Program-made: the position numbers and the translations under genes
The notes under the pieces: generated by a model
Told to the model about the DNA's origin: nothing
Seen by the model: only the letters and a program-made list of their open reading frames with translations
Databases searched by the model: none
NCBI RefSeq assembly: GCF_021117365.1
Contig: NZ_CP088262.1
Coordinates: forward strand, 3,164,501 to 3,228,500
Origin: Nocardioides sp. cx-173
GTDB lineage: Bacteria; Actinomycetota; Actinomycetes; Propionibacteriales; Nocardioidaceae
Direction: 5' to 3'
DNA: 64,000 bases
Part shown: one piece after another, positions 34,534 through 54,477 of the stretch
Layout of the letters: each line of letters starts with the position of its first letter
Numbering within the stretch: the stretch's first letter is position 1

Positions 34534-35214
34534 ATGTCGACCTACGGTCAGTTCTGCCCCGTGGCCAAGGCCATGGAGGTGCTCGACGAGCGATGGACGC
34601 TGCTCGTCGTACGCGAGCTGCTCGCCGGGAGCAGCCACTTCAACGAGCTGCGGCGCGGGGTGCCCCGGATGTCGCCCGCGCTGCTGTCCAAGCGGCTGCG
34701 CACCCTGGAGCGAGCCGGCGTCGTACGCCGCTCGGAGGACGGCGGGCGCACCTCCTACGCGCTCACCGAGAGCGGGCGCGAGCTGCACGGGATCGTCGAG
34801 GCGCTCGGGGTGTGGGGGGTCCGGTGGATCGGGCAGCTGGGCGCGGAGGACCTCGACCCCCACCTTCTGCTGTGGGACATGAAGCGCACCGTCCCGCTCG
34901 ACGCGTGGCCACGCTCGCGCACGGTGCTGGCGATCGAGTTCGACGACGTAGACACCCGCGCCGCGCGCTGGTGGATCGTGGTCTCCGGCGACGAGGTCGA
35001 CGTGTGCGACTACGACCCCGGTTTCGACGTGACCGCCACCCTCCACACCGGCCTGCGCGCGCTCACTCGCCTGTGGCGCGGCGACCTCGACTGGCCGCAG
35101 CTGCTCGCCAGCGGCGAGTGCAGGGTGGAGGGTCCCTCCGAGGTACGCCGCGAGCTCCCCCGCTGGCTCGGCCGGTCCACGCTGGCCGCGGTCCCCCGGG
35201 CGGTCCCGGCCTAG
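34534..35214 (+). CDS. HxlR-family winged-helix regulator with C-terminal SCP2-like domain
   Basis: 226 residues from ATG 34534. Residues 1-100 form the HxlR/MarR-like winged helix (CPVAKAMEVLDERWTLLVVRE, SHFNELRRGVPRMSPALLSK, GVVRRSEDGGRTSYALTESG). Residues 120-226 form an SCP2/sterol-carrier-like domain (LAIEFDDVDTRAARWWIVVS, then DVTATLHTGLRALTRLWRGDLDW), which is a known extension in actinobacterial HxlR proteins and could bind a hydrophobic effector. It is divergent from the methyltransferase, its likely target. Its 3' end overlaps hyuB by 4 bases in convergent orientation. Confidence 0.9.
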   Translation: MSTYGQFCPVAKAMEVLDERWTLLVVRELLAGSSHFNELRRGVPRMSPALLSKRLRTLERAGVVRRSEDGGRTSYALTESGRELHGIVEALGVWGVRWIGQLGAEDLDPHLLLWDMKRTVPLDAWPRSRTVLAIEFDDVDTRAARWWIVVSGDEVDVCDYDPGFDVTATLHTGLRALTRLWRGDLDWPQLLASGECRVEGPSEVRRELPRWLGRSTLAAVPRAVPA

Positions 35215-37115
35215 CGGACGTCCAGCGCCGCGTACGCCGCCCCGCCGGCCAGCGCCGCGTAGCCCGGGCCCCGGTCGAAGAACGCCTCGCTCGCGGCGGG
35301 TCGCGCCGCCCGCTCGGCCGCGGTCGCGTCGGCGTCGAAGCCCAGGTCGTCGCCCTCGCCGGTGAGCACCACGCCGTACGCCGCCAGCGCGGCCTCGGGC
35401 GAGACCTTGTGCCAGCGCACGTCGCGCACGACCAGCTCCGGGTCGCGCGCCCGGGGGTCGCCCCATCCGCCGCCCCCGGTGGTGCGGATCCGGATGACCT
35501 CGCCGGCCTTGACCGGCTCGGCGTCGGCCAGCGCGTCGACCTCCCGCTCGGCCGGGCCGCCGGGGTCGATGACGACCGAGAACGGCTGGCCCGCCCGGCC
35601 GCCGCGTACCCCCCAGCAGGCCAGGATCGAGCGGTCCGCGATGGACATGAAGTGGCCGTCCTTGAGCATCCGGATGTGCTTCTCGTAGCCGAGTCCGCCG
35701 CGGAACTGCCCGGCGCCGCCACTGTCGACGGCCAGGGACAGGGACTCGACCCGGAACGGGAAGCGCGCCTCGGTGAACTCGCTGGGCAGGTTGCGCGAGT
35801 CGGGCACGACGTGGATGGTGTCCTCGCCGTCGGCGTAGTGGCGCCCGCCGGAGCCGCCGCCGAGGACCTCGCGCATCAGGTAAGGCAGCCCGTTCAGGTC
35901 CTCGCCGTAGACGCCGGTGTAGCGGATCGTCTCCTGGTCGGCCGGCATCCTCCCGTCGACCGCCTTGGCGAGCACGCCGGCCAGCACACCCAGCAGCCGC
36001 AGGATCACGAACGTGCGGGCGTTGGTGGGTGCCGGGAACACCGGCGTCAACAGCGTGCCCGGCTCCGGGAAGCGCATCTCGATCAGCGGCACGACGCCCT
36101 CGTTGACGTCGAGCTCGGCCATCCGCTCCGGCGACTCCGCGAGGTTGCGCAGGATCGGCGCGAGCCACTTCTTGAGGAACACGCCGTCGCTGTAGTCGCC
36201 GCAATGGTTGATCGGGCCCTTCGCCTGCGGCGAGGTGCCGTCGAAGTCCAGGACGATCCGCTCGCCCTCCGTGTCGTCTGCGGGCGTGCGGGTCAGCGTG
36301 ATCCGCTGGGTGTGCAGCCTCGGCTCGTCGACGCCGTCGTGCTCGGCGTAGTCCTCCCACACCCAGGTGCCGACCGGGATCTGGCTGAGGATCTCGCGCC
36401 GGTACGTCGTGGTCGTGCGGTCGATGATCGCGTCGAAGCAGGAGTCCACGACCGCGACGCCGTACCGGTCGAACAGCTCGCCGAGCCGCCGCGCGCCCAT
36501 CAGGCAGGCCGAGCACTCGGCGTCGAGGTCGGCGGCGAGCGACTCCGGCATCCGGGAGTTGCGGGTCATGATCGCGAGCGCCGCGCGGTTGGGCACGCCG
36601 GCGTCCCAGAGCTTGATCGGCGGCACCATCAGGCCCTCGGAGAAGACGCTGGTGGCGTTGCTCGGCATCGACCCGGGCACGGCGCCCCCGATGTCGTCGT
36701 GGTGGCCGAACGCCTGCACGAACGCGACCACCCGACCCTCGCTGAAGACGGGCACCGTCACGCACAGGTCGGGCAGGTGGCCGATGCCGCCCTCCGAGCG
36801 GTAGACGTCGTTGTGGAAGAACACGTCGCCGGGTCGCATCTGCTCGATCGGGAAGTCGCGGGCGACCGGGTGCACCAGGGCGGAGTACGAGCGTCCGGTC
36901 AGCTTACGCAGCAGCCGGTCGTGGATGCCGGCTCGGAAGTCGTGGGCGTCGCGGATCATCGGGCTGCGGCTGGTGCGCCCGATCGCGGTCTCCACCTCCA
37001 GCTCCACGCTGGCCAGGGATCCCTGGACGATCTCGACCAGGACCGGGTCGGCGCTCGCCCCCGCGTCGTCGGTGAGGTGTCCGAAGGGGAACTGCGTGGG
37101 CGCTCGCCTGCTCAT
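35211..37115 (-). CDS. hyuB: Hydantoinase/oxoprolinase subunit B (HyuB family)
   Basis: 634 residues from ATG 37115, overlapping the hyuA stop (ATGA). Signatures are DPVLVEIVQGSLASVELEV, RPGDVFFHNDVYRSEGGIGH, VFSEGRVVAFVQAFGHHDDI, DFDGTSPQAKGPINHCGDYS and the C-terminal TTGGGGWGDP. With HyuA it would form an ATP-dependent amidohydrolase or carboxylase complex (N-methylhydantoinase, 5-oxoprolinase, caprolactamase and acetone/acetophenone carboxylase families). The substrate is unknown. It is the last gene of a likely GNAT-plsC-hyuA-hyuB transcript. Confidence 0.92.
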   Translation of the reverse strand: MSRRAPTQFPFGHLTDDAGASADPVLVEIVQGSLASVELEVETAIGRTSRSPMIRDAHDFRAGIHDRLLRKLTGRSYSALVHPVARDFPIEQMRPGDVFFHNDVYRSEGGIGHLPDLCVTVPVFSEGRVVAFVQAFGHHDDIGGAVPGSMPSNATSVFSEGLMVPPIKLWDAGVPNRAALAIMTRNSRMPESLAADLDAECSACLMGARRLGELFDRYGVAVVDSCFDAIIDRTTTTYRREILSQIPVGTWVWEDYAEHDGVDEPRLHTQRITLTRTPADDTEGERIVLDFDGTSPQAKGPINHCGDYSDGVFLKKWLAPILRNLAESPERMAELDVNEGVVPLIEMRFPEPGTLLTPVFPAPTNARTFVILRLLGVLAGVLAKAVDGRMPADQETIRYTGVYGEDLNGLPYLMREVLGGGSGGRHYADGEDTIHVVPDSRNLPSEFTEARFPFRVESLSLAVDSGGAGQFRGGLGYEKHIRMLKDGHFMSIADRSILACWGVRGGRAGQPFSVVIDPGGPAEREVDALADAEPVKAGEVIRIRTTGGGGWGDPRARDPELVVRDVRWHKVSPEAALAAYGVVLTGEGDDLGFDADATAAERAARPAASEAFFDRGPGYAALAGGAAYAALDVR

Positions 37116-39196
37116 ACCGTCGCCTCCCGCGTCACGATGAGGTTGAGGTACTCGTCCACGCGGGCGGTGAACCCGGGGTGGATGGGCACCGTCGAGCCGA
37201 ACTCCTCGATGACCACCGGTCCGGCCACGATCGTCCCGGGCGGCAGGTCCGTACGCTGCACGACCGGCGTCGCGACGTACCCGTCCCCCGCGTCGAAGCA
37301 CACCTGCCTCTCGGTGGTTGAGGTGTGAGCGGAGCGAGCCTCGAAACCACTCTCGACCACCGGGTGGCGCGCGATCTCCGGCCGCCGGATGGGGCCGATC
37401 CCCGAGACCCGCAGGTTGACCCACTCGACCTGCTGGGTGGCGTCGGTGGAGAAGTCGTAGCCGTAGAGCGCGCGATGCGCGGCGTGGAACGCGCCCGCGA
37501 CGTCGGCGAGCACGGCGACGTCGACGACCCCGTCGGGCACCGGCACCCGCACCTCGAAGGCCTGGCCGAAGTAGCGCAGGTCGGCGGTGCGGACGAAGCG
37601 GTGCTGCGCGGACGCGAACCCCTCGGTCCTCAGCGCCCGTGCGGCCTGCTCGGTCAGGTCGTCGTAGATCCCGGCCACCGTGGCCGCCTCGAGCTGGTCG
37701 GCCAGCGCGACGTGGGTCTGCACGTAGTCGTTCTTCACGTCCACGGTCAGCAGCCCGAACGCCGACACGTTGCCTGGGTTCGGCGGCACCAGGACGGTCG
37801 GGATCCCGAGCACGTCCATCAGCCGGCAGAGCAGCAGCGAGCCCGAGCCGCCGAAGGTCGTCAGCGTGAAGTCGCGGACGTCGAGCCCGCGCTTGACCGT
37901 GACCTGACGCAGCGCGTTGGCCTGGTTCCACGCGGAGATCTCCAGCACCCCGGCCGCGCACGCCTCCGGGCTCAGCCCGAGCTCCGCGGCCAGCGCGCGT
38001 ACGCCGGTCGCCGCGGCCTCGACGTCCAGCGTGATCTCCCCTCCGAGCAGGTGCGGGGGGATCCGGCCGAGGAAGACATGGGCGTCGGTGATCGTGACCT
38101 CGCGCCCGCCCTTGCCGTAGCAGATCGGCCCGGGGTCGGCGCCCGCCGACTGCGGCCCCACCTTGAGCGTCCCCTCGGGCGAGAGCCAGGCGATGGAGCC
38201 GCCGCCGGCGCCGACGGTGACCACGTCGATCATCGGGATCTTCGACGGGAAGGCGCCGACCGAGCCCTCGGTGGTCAGCGTCGGCTCGCCGTGGATCACG
38301 ACCGAGACGTCGGTCGACGTACCGCCGCCGTCGCTGGTGAGCACGTGGTCGAAGCCGGCCACCTTGGCGATCATCGCGGCGCCCAGCGCGCCGGCCGCGG
38401 GTCCGGAGAGCACGGTCGTGATCGGCTGGTGCACGACCTCGTCGGCCGAGAGCACGCCGCCGTTGGACTTCATCACGTAGAACGGCAGGTCGCCGTAGTC
38501 CGTCAGGCGGCTCTTGATGTTCGTGACGTACGCCGACAGTCGGGGCTTGACGGCCGCGTCGACGAGGGTGGTCATGGCTCGCTCGTACTCGCGGTACTCG
38601 CGCAGCACCTGGCTGCTCACCGACACCACGCACTCGGGGTGCTCCTGCGCCAGGACCGCGCGCATGCGCTCCTCGTGCTCGGCGTTGGCGTAGGAGTGCA
38701 GGAAGCAGATGCCGAGCGTGTTGACGCCGCGGCCGCGGAACCACCGCGCGACCTCGCGTGCGCCGGCCTCGTCGAAGGGCCGCACCTCGGCACCGGTGAC
38801 GTCGAGGCGGCCCTCGACGCCCTTCACGAGGTCGCGCGGCACGATCCGGTCGGGCTTGACCCAGAAGTAGGAGTTGCCGTAGCCGTCGGGCACCGACTGC
38901 CGGGCGATCTCGAGCATCGCCTCGTAGCCGGTGTTGGTGATGAAGCCGAGCCGGTCGACCTTGCCCTCGAGCAGCTGGTTGGTGGCGACCGTCGTGCCGT
39001 GGCTGACCGACGCGACGTCGGCGCCCTTCGCCCCCGCCAGGGCGAGCACCTTCTCGATCCCCTCGAGGAAGCCGTCGGCCGGGTTGCTCGGCGTCGACGG
39101 GGTCTTGGTCGTGACCAGCGCTCCGGACTCCTCGTCGAAGGCGACGACGTCCGTGAAGGTGCCGCCGGTGTCGATCCCGATCCTGATCCGACCCAT
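37112..39196 (-). CDS. hyuA: Hydantoinase/oxoprolinase subunit A (HyuA family) with embedded repeat
   Basis: 694 residues from ATG 39196; a TTG four codons upstream is also possible. It has an ASKHA-type ATPase fold: GIDTGGTFTDVVAFDE at the N terminus, VSHGTTVATNQLLEGK, MKSNGGVLSADEV, SGPAAGALGAAMIAK and SDGGGTSTDVSVV. It supplies the ATP-dependent step to HyuB. Near the C terminus (residues about 610-628, DNA 37313-37367) the reading frame passes through a palindromic repeat of family A, giving HPVVESGFEARSAHTSTTER, a stretch that does not look like family sequence. The frame stays open, so the protein may tolerate the insertion. Confidence 0.92.
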   Translation of the reverse strand: MGRIRIGIDTGGTFTDVVAFDEESGALVTTKTPSTPSNPADGFLEGIEKVLALAGAKGADVASVSHGTTVATNQLLEGKVDRLGFITNTGYEAMLEIARQSVPDGYGNSYFWVKPDRIVPRDLVKGVEGRLDVTGAEVRPFDEAGAREVARWFRGRGVNTLGICFLHSYANAEHEERMRAVLAQEHPECVVSVSSQVLREYREYERAMTTLVDAAVKPRLSAYVTNIKSRLTDYGDLPFYVMKSNGGVLSADEVVHQPITTVLSGPAAGALGAAMIAKVAGFDHVLTSDGGGTSTDVSVVIHGEPTLTTEGSVGAFPSKIPMIDVVTVGAGGGSIAWLSPEGTLKVGPQSAGADPGPICYGKGGREVTITDAHVFLGRIPPHLLGGEITLDVEAAATGVRALAAELGLSPEACAAGVLEISAWNQANALRQVTVKRGLDVRDFTLTTFGGSGSLLLCRLMDVLGIPTVLVPPNPGNVSAFGLLTVDVKNDYVQTHVALADQLEAATVAGIYDDLTEQAARALRTEGFASAQHRFVRTADLRYFGQAFEVRVPVPDGVVDVAVLADVAGAFHAAHRALYGYDFSTDATQQVEWVNLRVSGIGPIRRPEIARHPVVESGFEARSAHTSTTERQVCFDAGDGYVATPVVQRTDLPPGTIVAGPVVIEEFGSTVPIHPGFTARVDEYLNLIVTREATV
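37313..37367. repeat. Family A palindromic repeat inside hyuA
   Basis: It begins GGTGGTTGAGGTGTGAGCGG and ends CTCGACCACCGGGTGG, with inner arms GAGCGGAGCGAGC. It shares core words with the intergenic copies at 5267 and 41086. It is read in frame without a stop in the hyuA direction. Confidence 0.78.
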
Positions 39197-39215
39197 GCGT
39201 CGATCCAAGCAGAGA

Positions 39216-43781: not shown

Positions 43782-45173
43782 TCAGGCGTCACGTGCCGCC
43801 TCGAACGCCGCGGCGACCTCGAGCAGCCGCCGCTCGGCGCCGTGCGGCGCGACGATCTGGACCCCGACCGGCAGCCCGGAGGGCGTGTGACCGGCGGGCA
43901 CCGAGATCGCCGGGCAGCCGGTGACGGTGATGAAGTAAGCCGAGCGCATCCAGTCGAGGTACGACTCCATCTCGACGCCGTTGATCGCCGTCGGGAACTC
44001 CTGGTCGGCGGGGAACGGCGGTACCTGCGAGACCGGCAGCACCAGCACGTCGTACTGGGCGAAGAACAACCGCATGCGCTCCCCCAGTGCCGTGCGCCGC
44101 GCGTAGGCGGTCGCGACGTCGGCGCCGGTGAGCGACTCCCCGGCGCGGATGTTGTCGGCGAGCGACTGCTTGAACGACCCCGGGTGCCGCGCGAGCAGCT
44201 CCCCGAAGCGCGCCTGGAAGTGCCAGGCACGCAGGGTCCGGAACGTCTCGTCGGCCTCGCCGAGGTCCGGATGGTCGCCGAAGACCCGGGCACCCGAGCT
44301 CGCCAGCAGCCGCCCGGCGTCCTCCACGACGGTCGCGACCTCGTGGTCCACCTCGAACGCGCCACCGAGGTCCCGCGACCAGGCCACCCGCAGCCCGTGC
44401 AGCGTGCCGGTCACCGGGGGCGCGAAGGCCGACCCGTGCTCCCCCAGGGCCAGCGGTACGCGCGGGTCCGGACCGGCGAGCACCGACAGCAGGAGCGCCA
44501 CGTCGCCGACGTTGCGAGCGAGCGGACCACTGACCGAGGTCGTCTCCCACTGGTTGGCCAGCGGCCACCCCGGCACCCGTCCCAGGGAGGGGCGCAGGCC
44601 CACGACGCCGCAGAACGAGGCGGGGTTCCGCAGCGAGCCGCCCATGTCGGAGCCGTCGGCGAGCGGCACCATGCCCGAGGCGAGCGCCGCGGCCGCTCCC
44701 CCGCTCGAGCCGCCGGCCGACCGGCTCGGGTCGACCGGGTTGAGGGTGGTGCCGAAGACCGTGTTGAAGGTGTGGGAGCCGGCGGCGAACTCGGGCACGT
44801 TGGTCTTGCCGAGCAGTACGACGCCGGCCCGGCGGATCCGCTCGACGACCAGGTCGTCGGCGTCCGGCACGTGGTCGGCGAACAGCGGCGAGCCGTAGGT
44901 GGTGCGCCAGCCCGCGACGGCGTGGGTGTCCTTGACCGCGAACGGCAGTCCGTGGAGCGCGCCGACCGGCCCGCCCGAGGCGAGGTGCTGGTCGGCCGCG
45001 GCCGCTCCGGCCATGGCCCGGTCGGCGTCGAGCGAGACGATCGCGTTGAGCTCGCCGTTGCGGCTCTCGATGCGCGCCAGGTGCAGCTCGAGCAGCTCGC
45101 GCGCCGAGATCCGCCGCTCCCGGATCGCTGCGGCCTGCTCCCGCGCGGTGGACTCGACCGTCAGCTCGCTCAT
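43782..45173 (-). CDS. Amidase-signature family amidohydrolase
   Basis: 463 residues from ATG 45173. The Ser-cisSer-Lys triad is intact: Lys in GLPFAVKDTHAVAG, then SAGGSSGGAAAALASG and GSDMGGSLRNPASFCG carrying the two serines. Specificity is not readable from motifs; relatives include GatA, AtzE/AtzF, allophanate hydrolase and ureidomalonase-type enzymes. It lies 4 bases after the CoxG-like gene in the Mo hydroxylase cluster, so it likely acts on the same pathway, for example hydrolysing malonamate or ureidomalonate. This is inference. No C-terminal allophanate-hydrolase extension is present. Confidence 0.93.
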   Translation of the reverse strand: MSELTVESTAREQAAAIRERRISARELLELHLARIESRNGELNAIVSLDADRAMAGAAAADQHLASGGPVGALHGLPFAVKDTHAVAGWRTTYGSPLFADHVPDADDLVVERIRRAGVVLLGKTNVPEFAAGSHTFNTVFGTTLNPVDPSRSAGGSSGGAAAALASGMVPLADGSDMGGSLRNPASFCGVVGLRPSLGRVPGWPLANQWETTSVSGPLARNVGDVALLLSVLAGPDPRVPLALGEHGSAFAPPVTGTLHGLRVAWSRDLGGAFEVDHEVATVVEDAGRLLASSGARVFGDHPDLGEADETFRTLRAWHFQARFGELLARHPGSFKQSLADNIRAGESLTGADVATAYARRTALGERMRLFFAQYDVLVLPVSQVPPFPADQEFPTAINGVEMESYLDWMRSAYFITVTGCPAISVPAGHTPSGLPVGVQIVAPHGAERRLLEVAAAFEAARDA

Positions 45174-45177
45174 GCGG

Positions 45178-45789
45178 TCATGATCGCCGACGGCCGAAGA
45201 GGCCCCCGACCAGACCCTGCGCGACGACCCCCAGCAGCACCAGCCCGGCGCCCACCGCGACGCCCCTGAGGAAGTCCTCCTGCGACGCCGCCGCGCCGGC
45301 CCTCGGCGCGCTGAACACCTCACCCGGCACCGCTGACCCGTCAGAAACTTTCTGACGGGTCAGCGTGTCGCCCACGTTGCTGAAGAACTCGCCGGCCATG
45401 CGCTTGGAGACCGAGCCGAGCATCCGCTGGCCCACGCCGCCCACCATCCCGCCGACGACGGCGTCCGCGTCCCACGTCACCTGCGTGCCCTCGGGCACCT
45501 CCTCGAAGCGCACCGCGACGGTCGCGTCCACCGTCCCGGGAGCGCCCGCGCCCTGTAGGCGCATCGTCAGCGACTCGTGCTCGGCGAGCTCCGACAGCGC
45601 GCACGACCCGTCGTAGGTGCCCTTGATCGCAGCCACCCCGGCCGTGACCGTCATGGCGTAGGCGTGCTCGCCCGTGGCCTCGAGCCGGGAGCAGCCCGGG
45701 ATGCTCTGCACGAGGACGGCCGGGTCCAGGACGGCGTCCCAGACCGCGTCGAGGGGCAGGGGGATGACGTTCGAGCCGCTGATCTTCAC
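45178..45789 (-). CDS. coxG: CoxG-like SRPBCC protein with C-terminal membrane anchor and embedded palindrome
   Basis: 203 residues from GTG 45789 (GAGGAG 5 bases upstream), overlapping the large-subunit stop (GTGA). The SRPBCC/CoxG domain covers residues 1-140 (GSNVIPLPLDAVWDAVLDP, IPGCSRLEATGEHAY, VTWDADAVVGGMVGGVGQRM). A hydrophobic C terminus (GVAVGAGLVLLGVVAQGLVGG) probably anchors it to the membrane. CoxG helps recruit or mature molybdenum hydroxylases at the membrane. Residues 142-153 (TLTRQKVSDGSA) are encoded by a near-perfect copy of palindrome family B (45331-45365), inserted between domain and anchor without breaking the frame. Confidence 0.9.
   Translation of the reverse strand: MKISGSNVIPLPLDAVWDAVLDPAVLVQSIPGCSRLEATGEHAYAMTVTAGVAAIKGTYDGSCALSELAEHESLTMRLQGAGAPGTVDATVAVRFEEVPEGTQVTWDADAVVGGMVGGVGQRMLGSVSKRMAGEFFSNVGDTLTRQKVSDGSAVPGEVFSAPRAGAAASQEDFLRGVAVGAGLVLLGVVAQGLVGGLFGRRRS
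45331..45365. repeat. Palindrome family B, copy 2, inside coxG
   Basis: Perfect 17-bp arms (45331-45347 with 45349-45365) around one base: CGCTGACCCGTCAGAAA and its complement. It is nearly identical to the terminator after mycoredoxin at 15612-15648. Confidence 0.88.
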
Positions 45790-48187
45790 GAGGTCTCCTC
45801 GGCGTGCGCGAGTCGGAGGTGGAAGAGCTCGGAGGGAGAGATCGGCATCGCCGTGATCGTCAGACCAGGTGAGCTGAGCCCCTCGGCATCCTCGATCGCG
45901 GAGGCGAACACCGCCGCCGACGGGATCACCCCGGCCTCGCCCGCGCCCTTGATGCCGAGCGGGTTGAGCGGCGAGGGGGTCTCGAGGTGGTCGATGTCGA
46001 TGCCGTCGGGGACCTCGGTGACGTAGGGCATCAGGAAGTCCATGAACGAGGCGTTGAGCAGCTGCCCCGACTCGTCGTAGACCATCCGCTCGTAGAGCGC
46101 CCCCGCGACTCCCTGCGCGACGCCGCCGTGGATCTGCCCCTCCACGATCATCGGGTTGATCAGCCTGCCGCAGTCGTGGACGACGGCGTACTTCAGGATC
46201 GTGATCTCGGCGGTCAGCGGGTCGGTCTCGACGATCACCGCGTGCATGCCCGAGGCGAACGTCGAGCGCTCGGGCGAGTAGAAGTCGGTGCCCTCGAGCC
46301 CCGGCTCCTCGTCCTCGGGCACCGGCGGCTTCCCGGGGTCGCCGACCGTGAACTGGGTGGCCGCCTTGGACGCCTCGTCGAAGGCGTAGCGCAGCGGGTT
46401 GGACAGCACCGCCACCGTGCCCAGGTCGATCGCCGCGCCGGGCGAGCCCTTGACCGACACGACGCCGTCCACGACCTGCAGGTCGTCGGGCGAGGCCTCG
46501 AGCGCCTCGGCGGCGATCCGGAGGACCTTCTCCTTGGTCTTCCTGGCCGCCAGGTGGATCGCCGAGCCGCTCATCACCGCGGCCCGCGAGGCGAAGGTGC
46601 CGACGGCGTACGGCATCCGGCGGGTGTCGCCGGTGACCACCTCGACGTCGTCGAAGCGGCAGCCGAGCTCGTCGGCGACCAGCTGCGCGAAGACCGTCGC
46701 GTGCCCCTGCCCCTGGGTGGTGAGACCGGTGGCGACCTTGACCTTGCCGGAGGTCTCGATGTGCACGTGCGCGCCCTCGTAGGGGCCCACGCCGGTGCCC
46801 TCGACGTAGCAGGCCAGGCCGATGCCGACCCGCCGTCCCTGCGCGGCCATCTCCGCGCGGAACGCCGGGAAGTCGTCCCACCCGACCAGCGTCTTGATCT
46901 TCTCCAGCAGGGCCGGGTAGTCGCCGCTGTCGTACTCCAGCTCGCGGCCGTCCTGGAAGATCAGGCCCTGGTCGAAGGGGAACTCGTCGGGCTGGATGAA
47001 GTTGACCGCCCGCACCTCGGTGCGGTCCCGACCGAGCTCGGCGGCGATCGCGTCCATCGTGCGCTCCATCGCGAAGCAGCCCTGCGGCCGCCCGGCGCCG
47101 CGGTACGGCGTGACCATCACCGTGTTGGTGTAGAGCGACTCGAACACCACCCGGTAGACGTCCGGCTTGTAGGGCCCGAGCAGCTGGGTGGAGGTGATGA
47201 TCGGGACGATCAGCCCGTACGGCGTGTAGGCGCCGTGGTCGTGCCAGAACCTCACGTCGAGGGCCAGCAGCCGCCCCTCGTCGTCGAAGCCGACCTCGAT
47301 GTGGTGGATCTGCCCGCGCTCGTGGGCCGAGGAGACGAAGTGCTCGCGGCGGTCCTCGATGAACTTCACGGTACGGCGCAGGGTGCGCGCCGCGAGCGGC
47401 ACCAGCAGCTCCTCGGGCCAGGGATGGTTGATCTTCACGCCGAACCCGCCGCCGACGTCGGGGGTGATCACGTCGACCTGGCGCAGGTCGAGCCCCAGCT
47501 TGACGGCGACGACCGCGCGCACGCCGGTCGAGGTCTGGGTGGAGGTCCACACCTGCAGCCGGTCGCTGTCGGGGTCCCAGCGGGCGACGGTGCCGCGCCC
47601 CTCCAGCGGCATGCTGGCGCTGCGCTCCACGTCGAGGTCGAGGGTGAGCCGGCGCGGGGCCGCGGCGAGCGCCGCCTCGACGTCGCCGGTGCTCTGCTCC
47701 ATCCGGGCGCCGACGTTGCCCGGCACGTCCTCGTGCACCAGCCGGTCGGCGGCGCGGGCGGCCTCGACGCCGACCACGGGCGGCAGGACGTCGTAGGTGA
47801 CCCTGATCCGCCCGACCGCGTCCTCGGCGACGTAGCGGTCCTCGGCCACGACGAACGCGACGGCCTCGCCGACGTAGTTGACCTCGTCCTTGGCCAGCGC
47901 GTACTGCGTGCGGCCGTGGGTCAGCGCCGGGTGCGGGATCAGCAGGGGCAGCGGGTCGGCCATCGGCCCGGTCAGGTCGTCGTAGGTCCACACCGCGTGG
48001 ACCCCCTCGACGTCGAGCACGTCGGCCACGTCGATGTCGACGATGCGCGCGTGCGCGTGTGGCGAGCGGAGCACGGCGGCGTGCAGCGTGGCCGGGTCGA
48101 CCGCGATGTCGTCGGCGTAGCGGCCCCGACCCCTGAGGAACCGCTGGTCCTCGACGCGCTGGACGCCCGTGCCCATCAGCCTGGTGG

Positions 48188-48191
<4 letters not shown>
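45786..48191 (-). CDS. Molybdenum hydroxylase large (Mo-cofactor) subunit, CoxL form II/XDH type
   Basis: 801 residues from ATG 48191, overlapping the small-subunit stop. It has the two aldehyde-oxidase/xanthine-dehydrogenase domains: GRGRYADDI, LRSPHAHARI, DVGGGFGVKIN, the active loop TPYRGAGRPQG, GQGHATVFAQLVADELG and GIKGAGEAGVIPSA with the catalytic Glu. The loop reads YRGAGR, the form II type, not the AYxCSFR of true CO dehydrogenase, so CO oxidation is unlikely. Candidate substrates are N-heterocycles such as uracil, xanthine or nicotinate; the neighbouring NCS2 permease argues for uracil or xanthine. It works with the Fe-S and FAD subunits encoded just upstream. Confidence 0.94.
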
Positions 48192-48659
<468 letters not shown>

Positions 48660-48667
<8 letters not shown>

Positions 48668-49472
48668 CGCCCGTCGCCTCCCGCACGACCCGCTCGGTGA
48701 GCACCCGGACGAGCTGGGCGCGGTAGGCCGCCGTGGCGTGGATGTCGCCGGCCGGCTCCAGCCGCGCGAGCGCGGCCTCGCCCAGGTCCTTGACCGGCAC
48801 GCCGGAGAGGTCCACCACGACGGGTACGTCGCTCACGGACACGTAGCCGACCTTCACGGTCCCACCCTCCACCAGCGCGGCCGCGCCGACCAGGGCGTAG
48901 TCGCCGTGGCGACGCGCGATCTCGGCGAAGGCCACCCGCCCACCCGGCGCCAGGGCCGGGAAGCTCGCCGACGTGGCGATCTCGTCGTGCGCCAGGCTCG
49001 ACTCGAGCGGACCGACGTACAGCTCGGAGGCGGGGATGGTGCGGGTGCCGGACGGCCCGACCACCTCGACCGAGCCCCCGAGCAGCGTGAGCACCATCGG
49101 CAGCTCCGCGGCCGAGTCGGCGTGCACGATCGAGCCCACCGTCGTGCCGCGGTTGCGGATGGTCGCATGGGCCACGTGCGACAGCGCGAGCCGCAGCAGT
49201 GGCTGCACCCGCGCCGCCTCCTCGTGCGTCAGGACGTCGGCGTGCCGCGCCAGCGCGCCCACGCGAACCCCGCCGGGGCTCACCGTCACCTCGTCCAGCC
49301 CGGGCAGGCCGTTGATGTCGACCAGCCTCGAGGGCGCCGCGAGGCGCATCGACAGCAGCGGTACCAGCGACTGACCCCCCGCGAGCACCTTCGCGCCCGG
49401 GTCGCCGGACAGGGCGGCCAGCGCGTCCTCCAGCGAGCCGGGGCGGACGTAGTCGAAGGGGGCGGGCTTCAC
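48660..49472 (-). CDS. Molybdenum hydroxylase FAD-binding subunit
   Basis: 270 residues from GTG 49472, overlapping the permease stop (GTGA). CoxM/XdhB-type FAD domain: VLAGGQSLVPLLSMRLAAPS, RNRGTTVGSIVHADSAAELP, and the C-terminal domain ending VVREATGDE. It completes the heterotrimeric enzyme. Being coupled to an NCS2 nucleobase permease gene is strong context for a nucleobase substrate. Confidence 0.94.
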
Positions 49473-50893
49473 AGCGCTCGGGTGACCTCGTCCGCTCCTC
49501 GATGGACGCTCGGGCGGTGCCCGCGGCCGACGAGGTGGAAGTAGACGATGACCAGGATCGTGCCGAGCGCGATGCCGCTCAGCTCGAAGTCGTCGGTGAT
49601 GGCCAGCGTGACGCCGCCGATGCCGGCGATGATGCCGGCGGCCAGCCCCACGAGGTTGACCGGGTTGCCGAAGTCGACCCGGTTCTCGACCCAGATCTTG
49701 GCGCCGACCAGGCCGATCATGCCGTAGAGCACCACCGTGATCCCGCCGAGCACCCCGCCGGGGGTCGCGCTGACGATCGCCCCGAACTTCGGGCACAGCC
49801 CCAGCAGGATCGCGACGAGCGCGGCGACGTAGTAGGCGGCGGTGGAGTAGACCCGGGTGGCCCCCATGACGCCGATGTTCTCGGCGTACGTCGTGGTCGG
49901 CGAGCCGCCGAACGCGCTCGCCAGGGCGGTGGCGAACCCGTCGGCGCCGATCGCGCGGCCCATGTAGGGGTCGAGGTTCTCGCCGGTCATCTCGGCGACC
50001 GCCTTGACGTGCCCGGTGTTCTCCGCGATCAGCGCGATGACGCCGGGGAGCACGAGCAGGATGAAGGTCAGGGAGAAGCTCGGCCCGTGGACGACGCTGA
50101 CGCCGTCGCCGAGCGTGCCGCTGGGCACCCCGATCCAGTCGGCCGCCTTGACGCCGGCCCACGTGACGCGGTCGTGGTCGAACGCCGTGGCGACGCAGTA
50201 GGTCCCCTCCGTCGTGCAGGGCTCGCCGTTCTGGTCCAGCAGGTTGGCGCCGGGCAGCACCGAGTTGACGGTGCCGAACACCTTGTCGGCGCCCCACGAG
50301 ACCAGGTAGCCGAAGATGAGCGCCAGGAAGACCGCGACCCGGGACCAGAACCCAGGGAACAGCACGGCGGCGGCGACGAGGAAGGTGGCCGTCAGCAGGG
50401 CCACCCACTGGTCCTGCGGCCAGTAGACGCCGGCGACGACGGGCGCGAGGTTGAAGCCGATGAGCATCACGACGGCGCCGGTCACGGCGGGCGGCAGGAT
50501 GCGGTGGATCACCGAGGAGCCGGCGAAGTGGACCAGGACCCCCACGAGCAGCAGCACGAGGCCCGCCACCATGATCGCGCCGGTGACGTCCGCGGAGTCG
50601 CCGCCCTGGCCGCGGATCGCGGCGACGCTGGCCACGAAGGACGCACTGGTGCCCAGGTAGCTCGGCACCTTGTTGTTGCAGATCAGCAGGAACAGGATCG
50701 TGCAGATGCCGGAGAACATGATGGCGAGGTTCGGGTCGAGCCCCATGACCAGCGGGAACACGAACGTCGCCCCGAACATCGCGACCACGTGCTGGGCGCC
50801 GAGCCCGGCGGTCTTGCCCCAGCCGAGGCGCTGGTGCGGGCCGACCGCCTCGCCGGGAGCGGGGTCGATCTTCTCCCAGGTGAACAACGACAT
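49469..50893 (-). CDS. NCS2 (uracil/xanthine) family nucleobase permease
   Basis: 474 residues from ATG 50893, with AGGAGG 7 bases upstream; an ATG 16 codons earlier lacks a site. Twelve to fourteen membrane helices. NCS2 signatures are GAQHVVAMFGATFVFPLVMG, the YLGTSASFVASVAAI helix, LIAENTGHVKAVAEMTG (substrate-site Glu) and SPTTTYAENIGVMGATRV. UraA/RutG-like sequences carry this TYAENIGV motif, which tends towards uracil rather than xanthine; this is suggestive, not decisive. It is the first gene of the minus-strand catabolic operon and divergent from the AllH homologue across 106 bp. Confidence 0.93.
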   Translation of the reverse strand: MSLFTWEKIDPAPGEAVGPHQRLGWGKTAGLGAQHVVAMFGATFVFPLVMGLDPNLAIMFSGICTILFLLICNNKVPSYLGTSASFVASVAAIRGQGGDSADVTGAIMVAGLVLLLVGVLVHFAGSSVIHRILPPAVTGAVVMLIGFNLAPVVAGVYWPQDQWVALLTATFLVAAAVLFPGFWSRVAVFLALIFGYLVSWGADKVFGTVNSVLPGANLLDQNGEPCTTEGTYCVATAFDHDRVTWAGVKAADWIGVPSGTLGDGVSVVHGPSFSLTFILLVLPGVIALIAENTGHVKAVAEMTGENLDPYMGRAIGADGFATALASAFGGSPTTTYAENIGVMGATRVYSTAAYYVAALVAILLGLCPKFGAIVSATPGGVLGGITVVLYGMIGLVGAKIWVENRVDFGNPVNLVGLAAGIIAGIGGVTLAITDDFELSGIALGTILVIVYFHLVGRGHRPSVHRGADEVTRAL

Positions 50894-50970
50894 CGGTGGC
50901 CTCCTCGGCGGTGCGCGATCCACGAGAGCCCTATGACACACCCTCCGGGCCCTGACGGACAGGACCTACG

Positions 50971-50984
50971 CCGCAAAGTTGCGG
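50971..50984. promoter_or_regulatory. 14-bp palindrome between divergent catabolic operons
   Basis: CCGCAA-AG-TTGCGG, perfect 6-bp arms, located in the 106-bp gap between the NCS2 permease start (50893) and the DUF2877 start (51000). It is well placed as an operator coordinating both operons, but no regulator gene adjoins the gap. Confidence 0.4.
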
Positions 50985-50999
50985 AGTAGCGTCTGGCCT

Positions 51000-51653
51000 G
51001 TGACCCGGCCTCGACCGATCCCGGCCGCCGCCCCGGCCCGCGTGGCAGCGCGGCTACGTGACGCGCCCGACGGCCCGCTGCCGCTGCTCCACACCGGGCG
51101 GCACGCCGTGTACGTCGCGCTCGGCGAGCGCGCGCTGGGCGTGGTCGCGCGGCACGCGTGGCAGGTGCCCTGCGCGTTGCGCACCCGCCTGCCCGCACTG
51201 CCCGACGTCCGCTCCGCCTCGGTCCTCGCCGGGGTCCTGCACCTCGACGCGGCGCCGGTCGTGGTGGGCCGACTGGTCCAGACCAGCGTCACGGTGCGGA
51301 GCCTGCGACTCGCCGCGGACCGCGTCGACCCCGCGGCTCTGGTGGGCGGCGGCGGCGGGCTCACGCCGTACGGAGACGACGTGCTGTGCGGCTACCTCGC
51401 CGCCCTCCGGGCCGCCGGCCACCCCACCGAGCGCCTCGACGCCGAGGTCATGCGGCTGCTGCCCCGGACCACCGTCCTGTCGGCGACGCTGCTGGAGTGC
51501 GCACTGCGCGGCGAGGTCCTGCCGGAGGTCGCGGCCCTCCTGGCGGCCTGGGGCACGCCCGCGGCGGCCGCCGCCGAGGCGGCCCTGCTGCGCGTCGGCA
51601 GCTCGTCGGGCGCCGGACTGCTCGAGGGCGCCCGTCTGGCGCTGGCCGCATGA
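51000..51653 (+). CDS. allH: DUF2877 protein, AllH (YlbF) homologue
   Basis: 217 residues from GTG 51000; a TTG seven codons upstream is an alternative. It matches the DUF2877 family by GVVARHAWQVPCALR, the central GGGGGLTPYGDDVLCGYLAAL motif and the C-terminal SSSGAGLLEGARL. In E. coli the DUF2877 protein YlbF is encoded with FdrA and YlbE and is assigned to the oxamate carbamoyltransferase complex (AllFGH) that phosphorolyses oxalurate. It is the first gene of a three-gene operon with ATGA overlaps, divergent from the Mo hydroxylase operon. Confidence 0.85.
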   Translation: MTRPRPIPAAAPARVAARLRDAPDGPLPLLHTGRHAVYVALGERALGVVARHAWQVPCALRTRLPALPDVRSASVLAGVLHLDAAPVVVGRLVQTSVTVRSLRLAADRVDPAALVGGGGGLTPYGDDVLCGYLAALRAAGHPTERLDAEVMRLLPRTTVLSATLLECALRGEVLPEVAALLAAWGTPAAAAAEAALLRVGSSSGAGLLEGARLALAA

Positions 51654-53083
51654 GCAGCCACGTCGAGCTCCGCCCGGGCGCGTACGCCGACTCGGTGACC
51701 CTGCTCCAGGTGAGCCGCACCGTCGCCGGGCTGCCCGGCGTGGCCGCGGCCCAGGTGGCGATGGCGACCCCGCTCAACATCGAGGTGCTCGAGGGCATGG
51801 GCTTCGCCGTCCCGGCCGAGGCGGGGGTCAACGACCTGGTCGTCGCCGTACGCCTCGACGACCCGGCGGCCCTCGACGCGGTCCTCGCCGGAGTCGACCG
51901 GGCGCTCGACGACAGCAGCCGCCGCCCCACAGGCGCCGCCGAGGTGGCGCCGCACCGCACCACCGCCGCCGCGCTGCGAGACGCCGGCGACGCCCTCGTC
52001 CTGGTGTCCGTGCCCGGGCCCAGCGCCGTCGTCGAGGCGATGGACGCCGTCGAGGCCGGGCGCGACGTGATGGTCTTCAGCGACCACGTGCCGGTCGAGC
52101 ACGAGGTGGCGCTCAAGCGCGCGGCCGAGGCGGCCGGCGTCCTGGTCATGGGCCCCGACTGCGGCACGGCGATCGTGGATGGCGTCGGCCTCGGCTTCGC
52201 CAACGTCGTGTCCCCCGGCCCGGTCGGCATCGTCGCCGCGTCCGGCACCGGCTGCCAGCAGCTGCTCGCGCTCCTCGACCACGCCGGTGTCGGCGTCACC
52301 TCGGCGCTCGGTGTCGGCGGCCGCGACCTCACCGCCGAGGTCGGTGGCCTCGCCACCCGCGAGGCCCTGCGCCGCCTCGACGCCGACGACCGCGTCGAGC
52401 TCATCGTCGTGGTCTCCAAGCCGCCCGCGCCCGAGGTCGCCACCGCGATCGAGGAGTACGCCGCCGGCCTGGCCACCCCGGTCGAGCTCGCCCTCCTCGG
52501 GCCCGGCCGGCCCGATCTGACCGCCGCCGCCGAGCGCGTCCTGCGACGCCTCTCCCGCGCTCTCCCGGACCTGTCCCCCGCTGACCCGTCAGAAACTTCG
52601 CGACGGGTCGGCGGGGAGCTGCTGCGCGGGCTGTTCGTGGGCGGCACCCTCGCCGGCGAGGCGCGACAGATCGCCGCCGAGACCCTCGGCGTGGTGGGCA
52701 GCGCGCTGGCGGACCTGCACGGCGAGGGACACGGCGTCGTGGACTTCGGCGACGACGCCTACACCTCGGGGCGCGCGCACCCGATGATCGACCCGACCCT
52801 GCGACTGGAGCACCTCGCCCGAGCCGCCGCGGACCCGCACACCGGCGTCATCCTGCTCGACGTCGTGCTCGGCCATGGCGCCGAGCCCGACCCCGCGGCG
52901 CTCCTGGCCACGGCCCTGGCCGAGGTCAGCCAGCCGGTCGTCGCCTGCGTGGTCGGCACCGCCCAGGACCCGCAGGACCTGGACCGACAGGTCCGACTGC
53001 TCGCGGAGGCCGGCGCCGAGGTCCACCTCTCCAACGCCGGCGCGACCCGGCGCGCCCTCGAGATCCTGGGAGCCGGCCGATGA
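51650..53083 (+). CDS. allF: FdrA-family protein, AllF homologue, with embedded palindrome
   Basis: 477 residues from ATG 51650, overlapping the DUF2877 stop. The FdrA family has a succinyl-CoA-synthetase-like fold: VELRPGAYADSVTLLQVSR, GPDCGTAIVDGVGLGFANVV, VGIVAASGTGCQQLLALLDH, GGRDL, and later LLDVVLGHGAEPDP. By homology it is a subunit of a carbamoyltransferase acting on an N-carbamoyl amide and phosphate. The linker between its two halves (residues about 310-322, ADPSETSRRVGG) is encoded by a degenerate copy of palindrome family B (52578-52614). Slightly shorter than E. coli FdrA. Confidence 0.9.
   Translation: MSSHVELRPGAYADSVTLLQVSRTVAGLPGVAAAQVAMATPLNIEVLEGMGFAVPAEAGVNDLVVAVRLDDPAALDAVLAGVDRALDDSSRRPTGAAEVAPHRTTAAALRDAGDALVLVSVPGPSAVVEAMDAVEAGRDVMVFSDHVPVEHEVALKRAAEAAGVLVMGPDCGTAIVDGVGLGFANVVSPGPVGIVAASGTGCQQLLALLDHAGVGVTSALGVGGRDLTAEVGGLATREALRRLDADDRVELIVVVSKPPAPEVATAIEEYAAGLATPVELALLGPGRPDLTAAAERVLRRLSRALPDLSPADPSETSRRVGGELLRGLFVGGTLAGEARQIAAETLGVVGSALADLHGEGHGVVDFGDDAYTSGRAHPMIDPTLRLEHLARAAADPHTGVILLDVVLGHGAEPDPAALLATALAEVSQPVVACVVGTAQDPQDLDRQVRLLAEAGAEVHLSNAGATRRALEILGAGR
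52578..52614. repeat. Palindrome family B, copy 3, inside the fdrA homologue
   Basis: The left arm CGCTGACCCGTCAGAAACTT (52579-52598) is identical to the copy in coxG over 20 bases. The right arm (CGACGGGTCGGCGGG) has diverged but still pairs for most of its length. Confidence 0.8.
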
Positions 53084-54477
53084 GGGTCGTGACCGCCGGA
53101 GCCGACCTGCTGGCCGACGCGGTCCAGGCCCAGGCCGTCGACGTCACCCGCGTCGACTGGCGCCCTCCCCTGCCCGGCACCGAGGCCGACCTGACCGCGG
53201 TCGCCCTCGACCCCCGTCGCTCCGAGGCCAACGCGCGCGCCGGCGCCGCGATGCTCGCCGTCACCGCCCACCTCGTCGACGTCGGCCCGGCCTCCGAGGT
53301 GCTGGGGCTGCAGCGCGGCGAGTTCCTGCACGCCGGGCCACCGATCACCTGGGACCGCGCCTCCGGTCCGCTGCGCGGCGGGCTCATGGCGGGCGCCGCC
53401 CTCGAGGGCCTGGTCGACGACCCGGAGGACGCCGTCGCGCTGTTCGAGTCCGGCGACACCGTCTCCCTCGAGCCCTGTCACCACCGGGGCACGGTCGGCC
53501 CGATGGCCGGCGTGGTCACGCCGAGCATGTGGATGTTCGTGCTCGAGGACCGGGCCACCGGGCGGCGTACCCACTGCTCGCTCAACGAGGGCCTCGGCAA
53601 GGTGCTGCGCTACGGCGCCTACTCCCCCGACGTCCTCGCCCGCCTGCGTTGGATGGGCGACGTCCTCGGCCCCGCGCTGCGTACGGCGGTCCGGGCCACG
53701 GTGGACGACACGGGGCCCGTCGACGTCACCGGCATCCTCACGCAGATGCTGCAGATGGGCGACGAGGCCCACAACCGCAACCGCGCCGGCACCCTGATGC
53801 TGCTGCGCGACCTCGCCCCGGCGCTCGCGAGCAGCGGCATCGACGCGGGCGACGTCGCCGAGGTGCTGCGGTTCGTGGGCGGCAACGACCACTTCTTCCT
53901 CAACCTGGCGATGCCGGCCTGCAAGCTCGCGCTCGACGCGGCCCGCGACGTGCCGGGCTCGACGATGGTGGTCGCGATGGCGCGCAACGGCACCGACTTC
54001 GGCATCCAGGTCTCGGGCACGGGCGACGAGTGGTTCACCGGCCCCGCGCAGGTCGCCGAGGGCCTCTACCTCGGCGACTACGGCCCCGACGACGCCAACC
54101 CCGACATCGGCGACTCCGCCATCACCGAGACCGCCGGGCTCGGCGGCTTCGCGATGGCGACCGCCCCGGCGATCGTGCGCCTGGTGGGCGGCAGCGTGCC
54201 CGACGCCCTCGCCACGACCCGCCGCATGCACGAGATCACGCTCACCGAGAACCCCCGCTGGTCGGTGCCGGTGCTGGAGTTCCAGGGGACGCCCACGGGC
54301 ATCGACGTGACCCGGGTGTGTCGCACCGGGATCCTGCCGCAGATCAACACCGGCATGGCCGGGAGGCTCGCCGGCGTGGGGCAGGTCGGCGCCGGCCTGG
54401 TCACGCCGCCGGCCGCGATCTTCCCCCAGGCCCTGGTCCGGCTCGCCGAGCTGAGTACCCAGGCTCAGCACGCCTGA
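53080..54477 (+). CDS. allG: DUF1116 protein, AllG (YlbE) homologue
   Basis: 465 residues from ATG 53080, overlapping the FdrA stop (ATGA). DUF1116 family: DWRPPLPGTEADLTAV, VLGLQRGEFLHAGPPITWDR, SLEPCHHRGTVGPMAGVV, CSLNEGLGKVLRYGAYS, GNDHFFLNLAMPACKLALDA and RNGTDFGIQVSGTG are all typical. With the AllF and AllH homologues it should form a complete carbamoyltransferase. The substrate is not fixed by sequence; oxalurate and ureidomalonate are both plausible. A downstream carbamate kinase is not in this operon but lies at 27.6-28.5 kb. Confidence 0.9.
   Translation: MRVVTAGADLLADAVQAQAVDVTRVDWRPPLPGTEADLTAVALDPRRSEANARAGAAMLAVTAHLVDVGPASEVLGLQRGEFLHAGPPITWDRASGPLRGGLMAGAALEGLVDDPEDAVALFESGDTVSLEPCHHRGTVGPMAGVVTPSMWMFVLEDRATGRRTHCSLNEGLGKVLRYGAYSPDVLARLRWMGDVLGPALRTAVRATVDDTGPVDVTGILTQMLQMGDEAHNRNRAGTLMLLRDLAPALASSGIDAGDVAEVLRFVGGNDHFFLNLAMPACKLALDAARDVPGSTMVVAMARNGTDFGIQVSGTGDEWFTGPAQVAEGLYLGDYGPDDANPDIGDSAITETAGLGGFAMATAPAIVRLVGGSVPDALATTRRMHEITLTENPRWSVPVLEFQGTPTGIDVTRVCRTGILPQINTGMAGRLAGVGQVGAGLVTPPAAIFPQALVRLAELSTQAQHA

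Follow-up and report, generated by a model that had tools for sequence, protein, structure and literature searches.

A candidate ATP-yielding branch of oxidative uracil breakdown in Nocardioides sp. cx-173

We examined a stretch of 64,000 nucleotides from Nocardioides sp. cx-173 (contig NZ_CP088262.1; G000:C1:3164501-3228500, hereafter the window), which belongs to a genome of 4.45 Mb in a single contig (72.9% GC). It encodes a barbiturase, a carbamate kinase, a molybdenum (Mo) hydroxylase, an NCS2 permease, an amidase and, side by side, the three subunits of an AllF-AllG-AllH (AllFGH) complex, which belong to the families FdrA, DUF1116 and DUF2877. These genes probably form an oxidative uracil pathway with a phosphorolytic third step, in which AllFGH would split ureidomalonate to malonamate and carbamoyl phosphate and the carbamate kinase would make ATP. 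A first-pass annotation of the window, made from the letters alone, had proposed this interpretation. A genome survey and a gene replacement in Rhodococcus now support it, while the chemical step is deduced from sequence. The same annotation knew of no description of such an ATP-yielding branch; we found none in the open-licence literature, and subscription papers may hold one.

In the proposed scheme, the NCS2 permease would import the base, the Mo hydroxylase would oxidize uracil to barbiturate, and barbiturase would open the ring to give ureidomalonate. The AllFGH complex would convert ureidomalonate and phosphate to malonamate and carbamoyl phosphate. Carbamate kinase would then use carbamoyl phosphate and ADP to form ATP, NH3 and CO2, and the amidase would cleave malonamate to malonate and NH3. 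Thymine is possibly a further substrate. We infer every one of these reactions from the genes; the surest is the ring-opening, given the high similarity to a solved barbiturase and the complete active-site signature described below. Ureidomalonate is oxalurate with one additional CH2 group. The E. coli AllF-AllG-AllH complex interconverts oxalurate with oxamate and carbamoyl phosphate (PMC11326118, available part), and the energetics of the proposed branch would follow by analogy with E. coli and from general chemistry. In the known route, the pyrimidine is oxidized to barbiturate, and barbiturase and ureidomalonase then yield malonate and urea (PMC3758960, available part). Whereas that route ends in urea by hydrolysis, the proposed branch would use phosphate instead of water.

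Barbiturase and its association with AllG

NCBIfam labels the ring-opening enzyme of the window 'cyanuric acid amidohydrolase'. This name appears misleading, since both similarity and active-site signature (NHKVS, not RTRGG) point to barbiturase. The protein scores 677 bits against PDB 5hwe ('Barbiturase') and at most 324 bits against cyanuric acid hydrolases. Barbiturases are characterized by Asn, His, Lys, Val and Ser/Ala at AtzD positions 195, 321, 325, 345 and 346, where the cyanuric acid hydrolase AtzD itself has Arg, Thr, Arg, Gly and Gly (PMC3758960, available part); the window protein carries the complete barbiturase set (N193, H323, K327, V347, S348). Among 105 ring-opener sequences, 101 have NHKV, with S (84), A (8) or G (9) as the fifth residue, and the remaining four, from three plasmids and the genome G050, have RTRGG. 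By sequence, the window ring-opener is a barbiturase of Toblerone-fold group VI.

The first-pass annotation had set a survey of FdrA/DUF1116 and barbiturase as a test beforehand. Across 396 genomes of the phylum, AllG was present in 49 and the AtzD family in 27; both occurred together in 22, where chance would give 3.3 (Fisher p = 4e-18). At genus level the counts were 34 for AllG, 20 for AtzD and 15 for both out of 237 (p = 9e-11). These p values overstate the certainty because species are not independent. The refuting outcome that had been named, no co-occurrence beyond chance, did not occur. The two genes share a contig in 17 of the 22 genomes, 3.7–44 kb apart, and lie on separate contigs in the other five. 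All 20 ring-openers read from the 22 genomes (G086 and G326 were left out) carry the barbiturase signature. It was found in none of the five AtzD genomes without AllG, which show RTRGG (G050, G191) or F-GGG (G181, G297) or, in G192, a sequence cut short after F. Three AtzD loci from AllG-less genomes (L257 and L259 with F-GGG, L258 cut short) have a nearby amidase 37–38% identical to that of the window, and one of them also a Mo hydroxylase; these AtzD-family genes possibly belong to another ring-opening pathway.

In distant lineages (L031, L034, L036 and L037), the genes form one operon in the order barbiturase, NCS2, carbamate kinase, AllH, FdrA, AllG, the FAD (MoM), 2Fe-2S (MoS) and large (MoL) subunits of the Mo hydroxylase, CoxG and, in some cases, amidase, so that carbamate kinase directly precedes AllH-FdrA in all four. 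L036 and L037 have other open reading frames between AllG and MoM; such neighbourhood gene orders list reference genes only. Two genomes of the same class (G062 and G085) have the genes split in the way seen in the window. Pfam detects PucR in L036, the one representative of a 13-locus group, and in L143.

In a tree of AllG sequences, the best AllG from all 22 genomes with barbiturase and AllG falls into one clade (100/97). Its 53 rows come from barbiturase genomes only, namely the 22 of the phylum sample, 30 (of 46) genomes chosen for having barbiturase, and L190 from a plasmid search. Outside the clade stand E. coli AllG and all 14 AllG from AtzD-less genomes in the tree, which took in 14 of the 27 such genomes. 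Three other types of AllG are separate from this clade: the one shared by E. coli and G380 (100/99), the one of the cyanuric-acid plasmids and the hydantoinase type. The tree left out a broken match in G424 and the second AllG copies of G405, G419, G398, G436, G437, G028 and G386.

The linkage and the tree bear on a different explanation, namely that AllFGH simply serves allantoin breakdown as an oxamate carbamoyltransferase and that its position near the uracil genes is incidental. The E. coli complex does have oxamate carbamoyltransferase activity (PMC11326118, available part), and the window genome encodes an allantoinase. Nevertheless, AllG co-occurs and is linked with barbiturase, and its clade lies apart from E. 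coli. The first-pass annotation had named allantoin genes elsewhere in the genome, clearly co-regulated with the operon, as a counter-indication; Ldh_2/AllD (PF02615) gave no match in the window genome, with E. coli as positive control, and the single allantoinase above cut-off (535 bits) is more than 2 Mb away from the window. Ldh_2 is likewise missing from 16 of the 22 barbiturase and AllG genomes. The same search does recognise the allantoin type: in two AtzD-less genomes (G380, G388) Ldh_2 lies about 5 kb from AllG, an arrangement like that of allD and fdrA in E. coli. Oxalurate/allantoin was set aside as substrate on the missing Ldh_2 and the differing AllG clade, and we regard this explanation as highly improbable.

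Across 17 aligned FdrA sequences, E. coli included, 68 positions are invariant, and the core chemistry of FdrA is therefore probably kept. FdrA also resembles succinyl-CoA synthetase: its CoA-ligase domain scores 110 bits and its CoA-binding domain a weak 20.7 bits, below cut-off. The complex might accordingly cut the other amide of ureidomalonate and release malonyl phosphate or malonyl-CoA plus urea. A malonyl-CoA-synthase-like gene does lie beside barbiturase, in L035 only (446 bits, below the cut-off of 558). However, a cut at this position would produce nothing for the tightly linked carbamate kinase to act on, and carbamoyl phosphate is used by the E. coli complex (PMC11326118, available part). 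We give this possibility hardly any credence. As to the fate of malonate, malonyl-CoA decarboxylase (PF05292) gave no match, the control genomes being equally without one.

Carbamate kinase and amidase beside barbiturase

The named barbiturase loci nearest to the window (the best 80 of 536 confirmed, 84–95% identity) describe its close relatives; the nearest of them are from Nocardioides at 95% identity, with records of the same or a very near genome possibly excluded. In 77 of these 80 loci, a carbamate kinase gene is no more than 3 kb away from barbiturase. In two others, from Rhodococcus sp. IEGM 1409 (L137) and R. erythropolis NBRC 15567 (L143), a Rhodococcus-type amidase is found there instead. 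AllG is present in 46 of the 48 genomes searched from the 80 loci, and the two without it are both Rhodococcus. A search of 15 genomes for a true carbamate kinase gave at least 323 bits in all 13 others, whereas the two Rhodococcus reached 38.7 bits at best, with weak kinase paralogues. If the ureidomalonate step has been replaced, one would predict what the two Rhodococcus genomes show, namely that AllG and carbamate kinase are both lost and a different amidase stands beside barbiturase.

The hydrolytic ureidomalonase came from R. erythropolis, and we infer that the Rhodococcus amidase is this published enzyme. An AtzD-family gene is present in 35 of 301 genomes of the R. erythropolis family, from which we compared 20 loci, two of them from G687. 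The Rhodococcus amidase follows barbiturase in 17 loci (16 genomes), and neither carbamate kinase, FdrA nor AllG was found in these 17, within 11–20 kb each. In G460, carbamate kinase takes the place of the amidase, and a Mo cluster faces AllH-FdrA-AllG-amidase about 14–28 kb away, as in the window. L241 proved not to be of the barbiturase type (39% identity to the window protein, signature RERGG). In the sample examined, only Rhodococcus and its family have the hydrolytic gene set. The pattern of alternation fits a third step at which hydrolysis and phosphorolysis have been exchanged. The R. erythropolis cluster also contains a class III aminotransferase between amidase and NCS2 (L143 12768-13991).

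In the window itself, carbamate kinase and not amidase adjoins barbiturase. The window amidase is the nearest homologue of the Rhodococcus amidase in this genome (39%, 319 bits; next best 146). Amidases more than 50% identical to it occur in 20 of the 23 named loci showing CoxG. Malonamidase E2 is only distantly related (87 bits), so a role in malonamate cleavage rests on chemistry and context. We regard the window amidase as a candidate malonamate amidohydrolase, with ureidomalonase as the rival assignment.

The hydantoinase pair and the layout of the window

Domain searches located every gene of the cluster that the first-pass annotation had named, including the barbiturase-family gene and the carbamate kinase at 26.4–28.5 kb and, further on, NCS2, the three-subunit Mo hydroxylase, CoxG and amidase facing DUF2877-FdrA-DUF1116. 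The extent it gave to the cluster was too small, as it had missed a hydantoinase A/B pair (35.2–39.2 kb). This pair sits between the amidase-side operon and carbamate kinase-barbiturase, on the same strand. Hydantoinase A (HydA) scores 466 bits against the N-methylhydantoinase PDB 7hk5 and 495 bits against NCBIfam CapA (below the cut-off of 1000). Hydantoinase B (HydB) is 72% identical by tblastn to the HydB of L054 and scores 196 bits against PDB 7hk5 and 177 bits against CapB (again below a cut-off of 1000). The exact order MoL-CoxG-amidase-HydA-HydB-carbamate kinase-barbiturase is found in 13 of the 80 nearest named loci; more of them show the MoL-to-barbiturase order with extra end genes or cut by the flank, and the window has it on one strand, interrupted by other genes. 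HydA is present in at least 47 and HydB in at least 59 of the 80, counts that are limited by flank length. The pair is part of a conserved cluster in Nocardioides and its relatives, and it is possible that it acts as a second, ATP-dependent ring-opener. In R. erythropolis (L143), too, CoxG is followed by a HydA match. In three further loci (L054-L056), FdrA, AllG and hydantoinase A/B accompany a Mo hydroxylase, and L055 and L056 also have an amidase and an AMP-binding ligase. No AtzD match was found in the genomes of these loci, where hydantoinase A/B perhaps opens the ring in a related pathway.

These observations lend some substance to a third explanation: as in Rhodococcus, the amidase would form malonate and urea by hydrolysing ureidomalonate, and another acylurea, supplied for example by hydantoinase A/B, would be what AllFGH and carbamate kinase serve. 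The homology of the two amidases, the place of the pair within the cluster and the AtzD-less loci with FdrA-AllG are all in its favour. It does not account well for the presence of carbamate kinase beside barbiturase in nearly all of the nearest loci, or for the joint absence of carbamate kinase and AllG in the two genomes with the Rhodococcus-type amidase. Moreover, hydantoinase A/B is missing from the stretch in which the operons of distant lineages link AllFGH with barbiturase; of the 21 AtzD loci in the set compared, HydA and HydB occur together in two, from a genome of the same class (L046) and from Embleya (L190). We therefore consider this explanation unlikely and prefer phosphorolysis of ureidomalonate by AllFGH.

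Several observations weigh against phosphorolysis nonetheless. The window and Rhodococcus amidases share an NCBIfam subfamily, so a hydrolytic ureidomalonase could coexist with AllFGH, and the hydantoinase pair has no role in the proposed uracil scheme. Urease is encoded in 6 of the 22 barbiturase and AllG genomes, the window genome among them (one of the matches has 22.6 bits), and urea would be usable there; the idea that urease-negative bacteria use AllFGH was rejected for this reason. The AllFGH operon lies 22–27 kb from carbamate kinase-barbiturase in the window genome. AtzD is missing from 27 of the 49 AllG genomes, so AllG has other roles too, and six of the 22 genomes with both genes carry Ldh_2. 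The counts from the 80 named loci come from close relatives, and one of these loci (L123, Arachnia) has AllG but no carbamate kinase beside barbiturase; its second AllG has a carbamate kinase at a distance of about 4 kb. In the Rhodococcus family, the 100 kb read from G503 contain no carbamate kinase and no amidase of the Rhodococcus type. Finally, the E. coli complex was assayed in the reverse direction, with oxamate and carbamoyl phosphate (PMC11326118, available part).

The features of the window are listed in Table 1, where the starts given for NCS2, AllH, FdrA and AllG (50893, 51000, 51650 and 53080) are the likely ones. On the minus strand, the five adjacent pairs in the order NCS2, MoM, MoS, MoL, CoxG, amidase overlap by 4–8 bases or are 4 bases apart, and these genes thus look like one operon. 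AllH, FdrA and AllG run in the opposite direction across a gap of 106 bases.

Table 1. Features of the window discussed in the text (window coordinates)
Feature	Position	Strand	Basis
Barbiturase (AtzD/TrzD/barbiturase family ring-opening amidohydrolase)	26434..27537	-	PF09663 479 bits; similarity to 5hwe; signature
Carbamate kinase	27556..28488	-	Profile matches; 18 bases from barbiturase
CitMHS-type transporter	28529..29821	-	Adjoins carbamate kinase
Hydantoinase B (ATP-dependent N-methylhydantoinase/caprolactamase type)	~35211..37112 (start uncertain)	-	tblastn; PDB 7hk5; CapB
Hydantoinase A	37112..39208	-	PF01968 302 bits; PDB 7hk5; CapA
Amidase	43782..45173	-	PF01425 364 bits; NF005686 472 bits; start by inspection
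CoxG-like protein	45178..45789	-	PF06240 73 bits; GTG at 45789
Mo hydroxylase large subunit (MoL), candidate uracil dehydrogenase	45786..48191	-	NF040766 1498 bits
Mo hydroxylase 2Fe-2S subunit (MoS)	48188..48667	-	Fer2_2 PF01799 105 bits
Mo hydroxylase FAD subunit (MoM)	48660..49472	-	PF00941 142 bits
NCS2 nucleobase permease, RutG/uracil-permease-like	49469..50893	-	PF00860 233 bits
Divergent NCS2/AllH intergenic region, presumed promoters	50894..50999	.	Sequence and gene starts
AllH (DUF2877)	51000..51653	+	PF11392 74 bits; GTG start
FdrA (AllF)	51650..53083	+	NF004760; PDB 3dmy; 4-base overlap with AllH and AllG
AllG (DUF1116)	53080..54477	+	PF06545 316 bits; PDB 3clq 355 bits; tree

Some profile scores fall below their cut-offs: the NCS2 permease reaches 341 bits against the RutG model (cut-off 759), and FdrA 383 bits against NF004760 (cut-off 433), with 228 bits to PDB 3dmy ('Protein fdrA'). 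The carbamate kinase remains below TIGR00746 (336 bits, cut-off 358) and exceeds NF009007 (311 bits, cut-off 266). A second carbamate kinase of the window genome lies at G000:C1:4243078-4243974 (366 bits, above cut-off). The CitMHS-type transporter, which could carry barbiturate, malonate or malonamate, adjoins carbamate kinase in 7 of the 80 nearest named loci as well. NCBIfam names the Mo hydroxylase large subunit CODH_aero_grp5. Form I aerobic CO dehydrogenases have the loop motif AYxCSFR in this subunit. A true CO dehydrogenase of form I was set aside, as the window protein has PYRGAGR.

Plasmid clusters and comparison with known systems

AllFGH genes also accompany cyanuric acid hydrolases on plasmids. 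Cyanuric acid is the common intermediate of s-triazine herbicides. Two such clusters lie on Aminobacter sp. SR38 pSR8 (L185 12340-24759) and Klebsiella quasipneumoniae pKqs_SB610_3 (L191 6268-22703). Their ring-opener scores 810 bits against PDB 5t13, which we take to be TrzD, and is found with FdrA, AllG, carbamate kinase, amidohydrolase, BMP-type ABC transporter genes and AllH. The Klebsiella plasmid has the allophanate hydrolase gene atzF upstream, so hydrolysis is also encoded there. A Citrobacter freundii plasmid (L189 11928-20719) carries an IS26-flanked group of ring-opener, NCS2, AllH, FdrA, AllG, carbamate kinase and LysR; this ring-opener scores 582 bits against the cyanuric acid hydrolase PDB 6bum, presumably the Moorella enzyme. 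The same identity of 46.2% recurs in 36 of the 40 plasmid matches listed, of which L189 is the one examined. On an 809-kb plasmid of Peptoclostridium acidaminophilum (L186 5727-16330), PucR, two xanthine permeases and a cysteine hydrolase are found with AllH, FdrA, AllG and carbamate kinase.

AllFGH and carbamate kinase thus accompany two kinds of cyclic-ureide hydrolase in two phyla, and this is the basis of a broader proposal, for which we see the balance as even. AllF-AllG-AllH may be a general acylurea phosphorylase that converts H2N-CO-NH-CO-R and phosphate to carbamoyl phosphate and an amide, with ATP then formed via carbamate kinase. R would be COO- in oxalurate, CH2COO- in ureidomalonate, NH2 in biuret and NHCOO- in carboxybiuret. 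Such a module would plug into the uracil, cyanuric acid and allantoin pathways and possibly that of hydantoin, in line with the presence of AllFGH in barbiturase, cyanuric acid hydrolase, hydantoinase and allantoin clusters. If the broader proposal holds, Actinomycetota and the plasmid s-triazine pathways of Pseudomonadota would scavenge ring-ureide nitrogen while conserving energy. The reading of the uracil branch, if right, predicts that nitrogen is obtained from pyrimidines with a yield of ATP, and likewise from cyanuric acid where plasmids carry the genes. It would also give a function to genes still annotated as 'acyl-CoA synthetase FdrA' and 'DUF1116' and explain the carbamate kinase beside barbiturase.

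Four known systems can be compared with the window. The oxidative pyrimidine pathway of R. erythropolis shares the barbiturase (84% identity in NBRC 15567, L143), the adjoining NCS2 (62–63%) and the Mo large subunit (62%), but its amidase directly follows barbiturase, and the two Rhodococcus genomes have neither AllG nor a true carbamate kinase. Nitrifiers carry allFGHK beside biuret hydrolase with no atzD found, and the complex was assigned to oxalurate (PMC12625717, available part). Like the window, they combine AllFGH and carbamate kinase with a ureide hydrolase and lack upstream allantoin genes, whereas barbiturase and barbiturate go unmentioned in the available part of that paper. The cyanuric acid hydrolase (AtzD/TrzD) pathways have a homologous ring-opener and, in their plasmid versions, AllF, AllG, AllH and carbamate kinase; their signature is RTRGG in place of NHKVS, and biuret or carboxybiuret would take the part of the acylurea. 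The E. coli AllFGH-AllK system has the same three subunits with a carbamate kinase partner, and the invariant FdrA residues are common to both. However, the E. coli genes lie beside allantoin genes and those of the window beside uracil and barbiturate genes, and the AllG proteins belong to separate clades.

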